This document shows positions 7,511 through 22,578 of a stretch of 37,388 bases of DNA, piece after piece. The notes under the pieces are model-generated. The model searched no databases. It saw nothing but the letters and a program-made list of their open reading frames with translations, and was not told the origin of the DNA. Position numbers and translations under genes: made by a program. The DNA comes from Coriobacteriaceae bacterium (GTDB lineage Bacteria > Actinomycetota > Coriobacteriia > Coriobacteriales > Atopobiaceae): assembly GCA_003862195.1 (NCBI GenBank), contig QOUO01000017.1:1-37388 (forward strand), given 5' to 3'. How positions within the stretch are numbered: position 1 is the stretch's first letter; every line of letters begins with the position of its first letter.

Positions 7511-7632
7511 CGTTTCCTCGATTCCCTGTGGAGTGATGCGGTTGGTTTCCCCTTTCGCGCGACGCAACCGGAGGGGACCCATTCCCCTCCCCCTTGCAAC
7601 CTAATGCGAGAAAGTTACGCGCACACGTACAC

Positions 7633-12660: not shown

Positions 12661-14274
12661 CTATTCCGCGTTGCCAGAGTCGGGAAACGCGATCTGCTCC
12701 TCCAGGGCGTCCTCGGCAAGGCCGATGGCGTCGATGATGTCGCGCGCCATCGCGCCGCGCGAGCCAAAGCGCTCCGCCGCGATGGAGCCCGCGTAGCCGT
12801 GGACCTCGCACGCGAGCGCCGTGAGCACGGGGATGTCCTCGTTCTCCACGTTGGCGCGGGCGAGAAACGCGGCGATCACGCCTCCGAGCACGTCCCCGGA
12901 CCCGGCCGTCGCCAGGGCCGCAGGGCCCGGCTTGGGAAGTATCGCCACGTCCACGCCGACGCAGGCCGTGGCCGAGCCCTTCGCCACGACGGTGAGCTCG
13001 GAGCCGCCGTCGGCCCAGGCGATCCTGCGCGCGGCCTCCATCGCGGAGGTGAGCGACGCGGGCGGCGTGTCCTGCAGCCCCACGAGCCTGCCCAGCTCGC
13101 GGCGGTGCGGCGTCAGCACCAGAGGCGCGCTCCTGCGCAGCAGCTCCGGGAACTCGTCCAGCCTGTTGGACGTGAGCCTCGCGATGCAGTTGAGGCCGTC
13201 GGCGTCCACCACCAGCGGCACCTTGGACTCGAGCAGCCTCGACACCACGCCCACGGTGCCCGAGCTCACCCGCATGCCGGGCCCCACCAGCGTGGCCGTG
13301 CGCTTCTCGGCCAGCTCCGCCACGAGCTGGATCGCCTCGTTCGAGAACGTGCCATCCTTGCCCGCGGGCAGGCCCAGCACCGGGATCTCCATCATGCGCG
13401 CCTGGATGATGGGCGCGATGGGCTCGGGCACGGCGAGCGTCACGTAGCCGGCACCGGCGCGCGCCGCCGCCATGGCCGCCATCATGGGCGCGCCCACAAA
13501 GCGCGTGGAGCCGCCCACCACGAGCACGGAGCCGCGCGAGAACTTGTCGACGGCGTTCGAGGCAGGCTCGAGCACGTCGATGTAGTCCTCCAGGTCGGCG
13601 CGCCACGCCACGGGGTCAGCCTCGACGGCCAGGTGCTCGGTCTGCTCGGCCAGGGGCGCCACCACGATGGCGCCGCAGGCGTCGCGACCCTTGTCGGAAA
13701 GCAGGCCCGGCTTGAGCACGAGCATGGTCACGGTCGTGTCCGCGATCACGCACTCGCCGGCGGAAAGGCCCGTCTGCGCGGAAAGGCCGCTCGGCACGTC
13801 GACGGAAAGCACGCGCGCGCCGGACGCGTTGATGCAGTCGATCCAGATGTCGAAGGGCGCGCGGGGGCTGCCGTGGAAGCCAGTGCCCAGCATGGCGTCG
13901 ACCACGACGTCGGTGGACGAGAGGAGCTCCTCCACCTGCTCGCGCGGCGGTGCCACCAGGATCTTGACGCCGGCCGCCTGCGCGCTCTTGGCGACCACGC
14001 GCGCGAGGTCGCCCGCGATGGCGTCCGGGTCCTTGGGCGAGACGACGGTCACGGGCACGCCCTTGCCCAGCAGCGCCTCGGCAGCGACCCAGCCGTCCCC
14101 GCCGTTGTTGCCCAGGCCGCAGAAGACCGCGACGCTCCCCAGGTCGCCCATGCGGACGACCTCGCTCGCGGCGGCGTTTCCCGCCCTGTGCATGAGCTCG
14201 GAGATGCTGACGCCCACCTCCGTGAGGCCAGACTCGACGCGCTTCACGTCCTCAACGTTTAGAACAGGCTGCAT
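12661..14274 (-). CDS. nnr: Bifunctional NAD(P)HX epimerase/dehydratase
   Basis: Repairs hydrated NADH and NADPH: an N-terminal epimerase (YjeF-N, residues ~1-215) converts R to S epimers, and a C-terminal ADP-dependent dehydratase (ribokinase-like, ~225-530) restores the cofactor. 537 aa, the usual fused form. The epimerase shows FCGLGNNGGDGWVAAEAL and VDAMLGTGFHG; the dehydratase shows SVLVVGGSTRFVGAPMMAA, LTPHRRELGRL and the nucleotide-binding AGSGDVLGGVIAAFLA. ATG 14274 (MQPVLNVEDV) has GAGGGG upstream and lies 7 nt after the stop of the AcpS-like gene. The longer frame upstream only shadows that gene. In line with alr and tsaE, as in many actinobacteria. Confidence 0.95.
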   Translation of the reverse strand: MQPVLNVEDVKRVESGLTEVGVSISELMHRAGNAAASEVVRMGDLGSVAVFCGLGNNGGDGWVAAEALLGKGVPVTVVSPKDPDAIAGDLARVVAKSAQAAGVKILVAPPREQVEELLSSTDVVVDAMLGTGFHGSPRAPFDIWIDCINASGARVLSVDVPSGLSAQTGLSAGECVIADTTVTMLVLKPGLLSDKGRDACGAIVVAPLAEQTEHLAVEADPVAWRADLEDYIDVLEPASNAVDKFSRGSVLVVGGSTRFVGAPMMAAMAAARAGAGYVTLAVPEPIAPIIQARMMEIPVLGLPAGKDGTFSNEAIQLVAELAEKRTATLVGPGMRVSSGTVGVVSRLLESKVPLVVDADGLNCIARLTSNRLDEFPELLRRSAPLVLTPHRRELGRLVGLQDTPPASLTSAMEAARRIAWADGGSELTVVAKGSATACVGVDVAILPKPGPAALATAGSGDVLGGVIAAFLARANVENEDIPVLTALACEVHGYAGSIAAERFGSRGAMARDIIDAIGLAEDALEEQIAFPDSGNAE

Positions 14275-14281
14275 GTGCCCC

Positions 14282-14851
14282 TCACTCTCCAATAGGGCCT
14301 TGCGTGGGCGCCTCGTCCGTGCGGGGACGCTCGTCTTGCCCTTCTCCCTCAAGCGTATCCATTATGCCGTCCTGGAGCCGCTCGAGCTCGTCGATTATCG
14401 ACTTTGCCTCCCTGAAGGAGGCCTGGAGCTCCCTCTTGGGGTCGTGCTCCTCCCGCGGCCGCGGGCGCGCGGCGTCCGTCATGGCCACGGCGTTGGCCAC
14501 GGCCACCTCGTGCGTGCGGGAAAGCGAGATCACGACCTCCTCGACCCCCTGCTCGCGCGCCGCCTGCGCCACCTTGCCCGCAAGCCCCGCCACGAGCTGC
14601 CCGCGCTCGCCGGACTCGACGGCCACGTCGCCCAGGCGCACGCCGGCCGCGTCCGTCATGCCCAGCGACTTGAGCACCGCGCCGTGGGCCGCCAGGCACT
14701 GGGCGTAGCGCTCGGAGGGGCGCACGCCCGCGTCGCAGTACGCGCGCTCGGCGGCGGAGAAGACCTTCTCGCCAAAGCTGGGAATCCGTTCCAAGGCGCC
14801 GGCCACCCTCGATATCTCGAGCATGCCGACGCCCACGCCGACTCGAGCCAC
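14282..14851 (-). CDS. AcpS-like (4'-phosphopantetheinyl transferase fold) protein lacking metal ligands
   Basis: 189 aa starting at GTG 14851 (GGAG 5 nt upstream, inside the glmS 3' end). Residues 1-~120 align by eye with holo-ACP synthase: VGVGVGMLEISRV for the usual GIGxDxxEIxRI, KVFSAAERAYC for the FTxxEx(x)YC segment, LAAHGAVLKSLG for the FAAKEAxxKAxG helix, and VVISLSRTHEVAVA for the SLSHTxxxAxA strand. The Asp of the first motif is Gly, the Lys-Glu of KEA is His-Gly, and the His of SHT is Arg, so the Mg2+ ligands expected of an active enzyme are missing. A ~70-residue charged, helix-forming C-terminal tail follows, absent from normal AcpS (~120-130 aa). The position between glmS and nnr is the normal acpS locus of actinobacteria. 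It may be a degenerate or repurposed AcpS; function is uncertain. Confidence 0.75.
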   Translation of the reverse strand: MARVGVGVGMLEISRVAGALERIPSFGEKVFSAAERAYCDAGVRPSERYAQCLAAHGAVLKSLGMTDAAGVRLGDVAVESGERGQLVAGLAGKVAQAAREQGVEEVVISLSRTHEVAVANAVAMTDAARPRPREEHDPKRELQASFREAKSIIDELERLQDGIMDTLEGEGQDERPRTDEAPTQGPIGE

Positions 14852-14853
14852 GC

Positions 14854-16701
14854 CTACTCCACCGTGACGGACTTTGCCAGGTTCCTGGGCTTGTCCACGT
14901 CGCAGCCGCGCGCGCGGGCCACGTAGCGGGCCAGCAGCTGCAGGTGCACCACGGCCACCAGCGGCACCACCCACTCCTCGGGGCAGGGCGGAATCCACAG
15001 CACGTTCTCGCAGAGCTTCGCCACGCGCTCGTCGCCGTCGGTCGCCACGGCCACCACGGTCGCGCCGCGCGCGATGGACTCCTCGATGTTGCTGACCGTC
15101 TTGTCGTGCACGTGGTCGGCGGGCACGATGGCCACCACGGGGAAGCCGGGCTCCAGAAGCGCGATCGGGCCGTGCTTCATCTCGCCCGCGGGGTAGGCCT
15201 CGGCATGCAGGTAGCTGATCTCCTTCAGCTTGAGCGCACCCTCGTAGGCCGTGGTGGAGTTGACGCCGCGTCCCAGGAACAGCGCAGACTTTGCGTTGCG
15301 GAAGACGCGCGCGGCCTGCTTGTCCTGCCAGCGGCGCTTGATGACCTCCTCCATGAGCGAGGGCACCTGCTCCAGGCTCGCAAAGTGGCTGCGCACCTCG
15401 TCCAGGCCCATGTTGCCGTTGGTGTAGGCAAGGCGCAGCGCCAAAAGCGCGGACGCCACCATCTGGGCCGTGTAGGCCTTGGTCGAGGCGACGCACACCT
15501 CGGGGCCCGCCTGGATGTACATGGTGCCGTCGGACTCGCGTGCCGCGGAGGAGCCCAGCACGTTCGTGATCGCAAAGACCTTGCAGCCCATGGCCTTCAT
15601 GCGGCGCGCCGCCGTGAGCGTGTCCGCCGTCTCGCCCGACTGCGTGATGATCACGCAGAGCGTGTGGTCCGTGACGAGCGGCTCCTTGTAGTTGAGCTCG
15701 GAGGCGTACTCGCAGAACACCGGGATCTTGGCCCAGTCCTGCACGAGCTCGCGCGCGATGAGGCTCACGTGGTAGGACGTGCCGCACGCCACCATATAGA
15801 TGCGGTCGATCGCCTTGAGGTCGGCCTCGCTCATGGAAAGCTCGTCCAGCTCCACGCCATGCTCGCCCAGGCGGTCCTTCAGCAGGCGCGAGATCGCCGC
15901 GGGCTGCTCCGCGATCTCCTTCGCCATGAAGTCGGAGTATCCGCCCAGCGTCGCCGCGGAGGCGTCCCAGTCGATGTCGAGCGGCTTGGGGTGCTCGACG
16001 GGGTTGCCCTCGCGGTCCACGATGTCGATCGAGCCGTCCTCGTGCAGCGTCGCGATGTCGTAGTCGTCAAGCTGCAGGCAGTGCGAGGTGGCCTTTGCCA
16101 GCGGCATCACGTCGGAGGCGGCGTACGCGCCGTCCTTGGTCGAGGCGACCACCAGCGGCGACGCCTTCCTCGTGACGACGACCTCGCCCGGGCAGTCGGC
16201 GCACACCACGCCGAGCGCCCACGAGCCCTCGAGCCTGTCACAGGCGTAGCGCACGGCCAGCGCCAGGTCGCCCTTGGCCGGACCCCTCCAGGCGTCCTCC
16301 ACCAGGTGCGCCACGACCTCGGTGTCCGTGTCGCTCTTGAAGTTGTGACCCTCGGCCATGAGCTGGCGCCTCAGGGTCTCGTAGTTCTCGATGATGCCGT
16401 TGTGGACCACGGCGATCCTGCCGTCGCAGCTCGTGTGCGGGTGGGCGTTGCGGTCCGTCGGCGCGCCGTGCGTCGCCCAGCGCGTGTGGCCGATGCCGGT
16501 GTTGCCCACGAGGTTCGCCGCGTCGCAGCGCTCCTTCAGCGCGGCCACGCGCCCGGCGACCTTCACCAGATGCAGGCTCTTGTCCGGCGACAGCACGGCG
16601 ACGCCAGCCGAGTCATATCCGCGGTACTCCAGGGTCTGGAGCCCGTACAGCAAAAAGTCGATTGCCTGTCCCTTGCCCGTGTAGCCAACGACGCCGCACA
16701 T
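14854..16701 (-). CDS. glmS: Glucosamine-fructose-6-phosphate aminotransferase (isomerizing)
   Basis: Makes glucosamine-6-phosphate from fructose-6-phosphate and glutamine, the entry step to UDP-GlcNAc. 615 aa, normal length. The N-terminal glutaminase begins MCGVVGYTG with the nucleophile Cys2 and continues with EYRGYDSAGVAV and GIGHTRWATHGAP. Two SIS sugar-isomerase domains follow (ACGTSYHVSLIARELVQ; TQSGETADTLTAARRM; GRGVNSTTAYEGALKLKE; HAEAYPAGEMKHGPIALL). The C-terminus PRNLAKSVTVE is the conserved end carrying the gating lysine region. The ATG has AAGGAGG, 7 nt upstream. First gene of a long minus-strand run, 206 bp after glmM. Confidence 0.98.
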   Translation of the reverse strand: MCGVVGYTGKGQAIDFLLYGLQTLEYRGYDSAGVAVLSPDKSLHLVKVAGRVAALKERCDAANLVGNTGIGHTRWATHGAPTDRNAHPHTSCDGRIAVVHNGIIENYETLRRQLMAEGHNFKSDTDTEVVAHLVEDAWRGPAKGDLALAVRYACDRLEGSWALGVVCADCPGEVVVTRKASPLVVASTKDGAYAASDVMPLAKATSHCLQLDDYDIATLHEDGSIDIVDREGNPVEHPKPLDIDWDASAATLGGYSDFMAKEIAEQPAAISRLLKDRLGEHGVELDELSMSEADLKAIDRIYMVACGTSYHVSLIARELVQDWAKIPVFCEYASELNYKEPLVTDHTLCVIITQSGETADTLTAARRMKAMGCKVFAITNVLGSSAARESDGTMYIQAGPEVCVASTKAYTAQMVASALLALRLAYTNGNMGLDEVRSHFASLEQVPSLMEEVIKRRWQDKQAARVFRNAKSALFLGRGVNSTTAYEGALKLKEISYLHAEAYPAGEMKHGPIALLEPGFPVVAIVPADHVHDKTVSNIEESIARGATVVAVATDGDERVAKLCENVLWIPPCPEEWVVPLVAVVHLQLLARYVARARGCDVDKPRNLAKSVTVE

Positions 16702-22214: not shown

Positions 22215-22578
22215 TGGTGGAGGCGCGGAGAATCGAACTCCGGTCCAAAGCAATCCCCTGGCAGGTGTCTTCAAGCTCAGTCGTCAGTTAGGTCTCGGGC
22301 GCATCGCACCTGGCGACACGCGCTCAGCGCCCCAGCTGGTTCGGTCTTACTTCCGGGCATACCAGCCACGTCCCGAAAGGCATCTCCCTAAATGACGTCG
22401 CACCCGGAGCGGGAGAATATCCGGGATTGACGGCTGCTAGTTAAAAGTTAAGCAGCGAGGGCATAGCCCTGATAAGAATCGTTGTCAATTAAATTTGACG
22501 GTACCCCTGTTTTACGTGGCGAGGAGACCACGGCTTGCTGCCCACCTCAGAACTACCCTGTCGAAACCAGTCGCCCCC
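22215..22578 (-). ncRNA. ssrA: Transfer-messenger RNA (tmRNA)
   Basis: Rescues stalled ribosomes with SmpB by acting as tRNA-Ala and then as mRNA for a degradation tag. About 364 nt. The 5' end GGGGGCGACTGGTTTCGACA pairs with the 3' end CGCCTCCACCA (7-bp acceptor stem with one G-U, encoded CCA). A T-arm GGAGTTCGATTCTCC precedes the 3' end. The tag frame ends with codons for DNDSYQGYALAA and a TAA (complement of about 22451-22489). The exact resume codon is not certain; the frame is open for several codons before the Asp. Encoded 197 bp downstream of the flavin reductase-rubredoxin gene and near smpB. Confidence 0.95.

Follow-up and report, generated by a model that had tools for sequence, protein, structure and literature searches.

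AcpS is usually regarded as a purely catalytic housekeeping enzyme, which arms acyl carrier proteins (ACPs) and is normally essential. In bacterial pseudoenzymes in general, the fold is conserved and selection maintains the protein although catalytic residues have been lost. Our literature search returned no report of an AcpS pseudoenzyme or of a non-catalytic role of AcpS. In solved AcpS structures, the equivalents of Asp8 and Glu57/58 are ligands of the metal at the CoA pyrophosphate (PMC3447402), and Arg14 and Arg28 contact ACP according to a passage of the same paper that cites Parris et al. 2000. The reaction of AcpS is also catalysed by Sfp-type (group II) PPTases, which require the counterparts of this Asp and Glu and are able to serve fatty acid synthesis alone in other bacteria (PMC4103896).

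The acpS orthologue described here belongs to a Parafannyhessea-like Atopobiaceae MAG of 155 contigs and lies within the 37,388 nucleotides that were analysed as a whole (the window). It encodes a protein of 189 aa (VARVGVGVGMLEI...LAAHGAVLKSLGMTDAAG...SLSRTHEVAV) from which catalytic residues have been lost. The gene occupies positions 14282..14851, as given correctly but without the strand in a preliminary description of this DNA; it is on the minus strand, with a GTG start at 14851 and a stop at 14284-14282. It starts 2 nt past its upstream neighbour glmS (14854..16701, minus strand) and ends 7 nt ahead of nnr, which encodes NAD(P)HX epimerase/dehydratase (12661..14274, minus strand). The locus order glmS-acpS-nnr therefore holds, and the protein groups with orthologues from Olsenella and from a congener that is probably, and is here called, P. 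umbonata. Elsewhere in the window, Rfam matches to Corio-PBP RNA (7551-7624, minus strand) and tmRNA (22215-22578, minus strand) fit an origin in the Coriobacteriia.

The protein retains the AcpS fold. An AlphaFold2 model, built as a monomer only, consists of an AcpS core (residues 4-125; 14477..14842, minus strand) with pLDDT mostly >90 and one additional helix (residues 138-168). Foldseek places it closest to AcpS and fungal PPT domains, with AcpS of S. coelicolor (2jbz; TM 0.86 by target) among the best matches. Family scores remain below their cut-offs, with 17.8 bits against 25 for the Pfam ACPS model (PF01648) and 25.6 against 59.8 for TIGR00516, and the NCBIfam AcpS models cover the first 122 residues, likewise under the curated cut-offs.

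The active site is a different matter. Residues were mapped onto B. subtilis AcpS, in agreement with the numbering in the published structure paper. The two metal-binding carboxylates, noted as missing in the preliminary description, are indeed replaced: codon 9 (14825..14827, minus strand) and codon 57 (14681..14683, minus strand) both read GGC and encode Gly, where all 85 intact family orthologues have Asp and Glu, corresponding to the Mg2+ ligands Asp8 and Glu58 of Bacillus AcpS. Since Asp and Glu are invariant in these 85 and the change from Glu to Gly at residue 57 takes two base changes (GAG to GGC), their loss is more than would be expected by chance. Compared with the intact orthologues, Arg52, Phe53 and the CoA loop GTGF have also disappeared, which the preliminary description did not mention; GMTD at codons 64-67 (14651..14662, minus strand) replaces the CoA-site loop G(T/C)GF. 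Ser111, Thr113 and Lys61 (14669..14671, minus strand; Lys62 of Bacillus AcpS) are kept, the last as previously described. Two further replacements that had been counted as part of the loss were rejected as markers, as both occur in intact orthologues: P. umbonata, with Asp and Glu in place, has an identical SLSRTHEVA, the column of the SRT change holds H, Y, F, T or R among intact copies, and His at residue 56 is found in 5 of the 85. Nor are the replacements conserved across the Coriobacteriia, as had been proposed for a check; they are specific to the window genome, and other lineages have lost the same residues, partly in favour of different letters. Judged from its sequence, the protein has almost certainly lost catalysis.

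Of 140 family genomes, 138 have an orthologue, among them every one of the 101 near-complete genomes. Among 103 aligned family orthologues, D9 and E57 are both kept in 85, including P. umbonata, and E57 is lost in 18, a proportion which is not a frequency because suspected-lost genomes were fetched on purpose. The 18 come from six genera (g1, g3, g18, g23, g25 and g35) and carry G, R, S, Q or K in place of E57; D9 is lost as well in 11 of them. In a 19th genome (G139), whose orthologue is truncated at a contig end, D9 is changed to N. Every genome with a lost copy has glmS and/or nnr adjoining acpS. On trees from which the catalytic columns had been left out, 8 changes had to be assumed (7-9 in the bootstrap), with branch support for 4 or more of them, and no bootstrap tree (0%) gave the loss a single origin. 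The exact number of losses is uncertain, since many deep branches are weakly supported and some lost copies are long-branched. The trees thus indicate that the same residues have been lost independently in several Atopobiaceae lineages. Two side observations concern acpS copies of the family. In the complete genome of another congener (G002), acpS (L005 1501-1872; G002:C1:2297398) keeps both D and E, but a single base is missing from a run of G, so that the frame is broken near residue 70; this is either a real mutation or a base-calling error. In genera g33 and g27 (L034-L043), a second, short AcpS-like protein (GIGIDSVDIEEM), which has FAVKEA and SITNE and is tail-less, is encoded in addition to the locus copy.

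The older losses have been followed by purifying selection. In a codon model, the maximum-likelihood omega of the core was 0.098 in the lost clade of g18 and 0.093 in that of g35; intact clades gave 0.03-0.09. For pairs of genomes in which both copies are lost, dN/dS was 0.07 (G033/G034) and 0.06 (G131/G135), and the tail helix was without amino-acid change. In the lost copies, constraint has been relaxed at V8, D9, Y38, A43, E57, G66, F67, S77 and N120, several of which belong to the CoA/Mg site, and fold positions are maintained. The lost copies in g18 and g35 are retained proteins and not pseudogenes. Since these clades are constrained at an omega of about 0.09, a copy that has lost catalysis does not, as a rule, go on to decay, and they have likely kept a non-catalytic role.

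The genome encodes a second PPTase with intact motifs. A search for a second AcpS or Sfp, which the preliminary description had suggested, found an Sfp-type protein on another contig with the motifs GVDVE and WTRREAILK. Four ACP-like proteins are encoded in the genome; one of them is located beside plsX-/rnc-like genes and one beside a fabH-like sequence, with these neighbours read by eye, and because such ACPs persist, holo-ACP is still needed. A second PPTase is present in 18 of 18 genomes with lost copies versus 46 of 85 with intact ones (Fisher p = 9e-5, uncorrected for phylogeny); after phylogenetic pairing the link was not significant, as too few independent pairs differ. PF01648 alone undercounts PPTases: the Sfp-type proteins of genus g18 escape it and were detected by a search with the Sfp-type protein of the window genome. 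Genus g35 also has a separate family of PPTase-like proteins (L182, L188-L190, L239-L245), which are extended considerably at the N-terminus and carry G(V/L)GIDL and FAAKEAAFK as motifs; some genomes encode two copies.

Two parts of the protein outside the catalytic centre could carry a remaining function. One is the basic surface for ACP docking: Arg is kept at codon 15 (14807..14809, minus strand), the equivalent of Bacillus Arg14 with its contact to ACP Asp35/Asp38, and Lys at codon 29 (14765..14767, minus strand) keeps a basic residue at the ACP-binding position of Arg28. In the 18 lost copies, position 15 is R in 17 and K in one, R22 is present in 18/18, and position 29 is R in 15 and K in three. 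These residues may be retained for folding instead of ACP binding. The other is the C-terminal helix (residues 138-168; 14348..14440, minus strand), which comprises about 30 residues with a conserved F..AR...DEL motif. The tail had been described as an addition to this protein, an idea that we rejected: the helix is old and is shared by Eggerthellaceae, by Collinsella-like genomes and by further orders of the class (family names being partly provisional), and the active site is intact in every one sampled. It is absent from the sampled AcpS proteins outside the Coriobacteriia, and in our sample is therefore specific to this class. Its conservation across the class is at the protein level and not at the codon level, and no constraint on the DNA of the tail codons was seen across the family. 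A known domain was likewise rejected, since matches in Pfam were only weak noise (DUF3391, DUF7795 and FtsK_gamma). Searches of 11 genomes gave no credible second copy of the helix, and neither these genomes nor Pfam held another match that could point to a partner. Within the genus, about 62 nt of helix-coding DNA (14350-14411) are identical in three species, although about 45% of synonymous sites in the acpS core differ; this segment contains a near-palindrome (GTCGATAATCGAC) and ATA codons and is possibly a local promoter/operator or a product of gene conversion. In the single-contig genome G022 (L053, L079; G022:C1:230834-231347), an intact acpS core is accompanied by the conserved tail helix in another frame.

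Taken together, these observations lead us to favour, by a modest degree, a reading in which catalysis has passed to another PPTase and AcpS has been kept as a non-catalytic, probably ACP-binding protein. With the PPTase active site of the orthologue destroyed and the protein presumably inactive, the conversion of apo-ACP would most likely fall to the genome's separate Sfp-type PPTase. AcpS would be retained, here and in other Atopobiaceae lineages, for a non-catalytic role in which the dead core binds ACP and the C-terminal helix recruits a partner, making the protein an ACP-binding adaptor or regulator. A wider version, to which we give somewhat less than an even chance, is that AcpS of the Coriobacteriia is bifunctional, arming ACP and fulfilling a class-wide second role through the C-terminal helix, and that where another PPTase takes over, catalysis is no longer needed and is lost repeatedly, which exposes the second role as the indispensable one. 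The preliminary description had left the choice between a repurposed pseudoenzyme and a divergent transferase. The former is the better supported by the missing metal ligands, the presence of a second PPTase and the recurrent loss with purifying selection in other genera. For a transferase that is still active, with other metal ligands or with no metal, speak the preserved fold and Lys61; however, no replacement ligands are seen, both carboxylates and the CoA loop have been lost together although Sfp-type PPTases cannot do without the corresponding pair of residues (PMC4103896), and lost copies of different genera share no single set of replacements, which makes this reading very improbable. 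Even less credible is a sequencing or assembly artefact, as might be suspected in a single MAG of this many contigs with a canonical nearest relative, because the substitutions are numerous, keep the frame, in several cases involve more than one base and introduce no stop or frameshift, and because other genomes show parallel losses.

The main rival is a decay in progress: AcpS would have become redundant through the Sfp-type PPTase, leaving a young pseudogene whose frame is still open. This applies to the window's own lineage, where the loss looks recent. Omega on the core branch is 0.63-0.92, with wide intervals including 1, versus 0.10-0.17 on the sister branch of P. umbonata, and acpS is only 61% identical to that of P. 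umbonata, whereas glmM, glmS, nnr and alr reach about 86-96%. The frameshift in G002 could further mean that the gene is dispensable in the genus, unless it is a base-calling error. The earlier judgement that this is not simple decay thus holds in the older lost clades and does not extend to the window lineage, with its near-neutral core. On the other hand, the reading frame has stayed open, the tail helix is nearly unchanged with respect to P. umbonata (1 nonsynonymous and 2 synonymous differences in 24 codons), and the older lost clades are constrained, so that we consider decay rather unlikely, and a retained non-catalytic role for the window's copy somewhat the more probable. The contrast between core and tail could also mean that the core is free to drift and that selection acts only on the C-terminal helix, its DNA element or the translation coupling to nnr. 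The near-constancy of the helix within the genus while the core diverged, including the segment identical in three species, would fit this explanation, but the core is constrained too in the lost clades of other genera and tail codons lack synonymous constraint across the family, and we regard it as improbable.

Overall, the orthologue shares with AcpS (group I PPTase; PF01648, TIGR00516) its fold, the glmS-acpS-nnr locus, orthology and the basic ACP-docking residues, and differs from it in the absence of the Mg2+ ligands and the CoA loop, in scores under the Pfam and TIGRFAM cut-offs and in the C-terminal helix. The label holo-ACP synthase from automatic annotation is therefore misleading in at least six Atopobiaceae genera. 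Sfp-type PPTases, of which the genome's own copy is the likely substitute, are larger (>200 aa), have a two-fold pseudosymmetry (PMC4103896) and are encoded elsewhere than at the acpS locus. An active site lost repeatedly while the gene, its locus, the docking residues and the class-specific helix were kept would amount to a natural separation-of-function experiment and would point to a non-catalytic role of AcpS that is directly testable. With conserved bacterial pseudoenzymes, the acpS orthologues have in common a conserved fold with lost catalytic residues and, in g18 and g35, purifying selection after the loss (omega 0.09-0.10).
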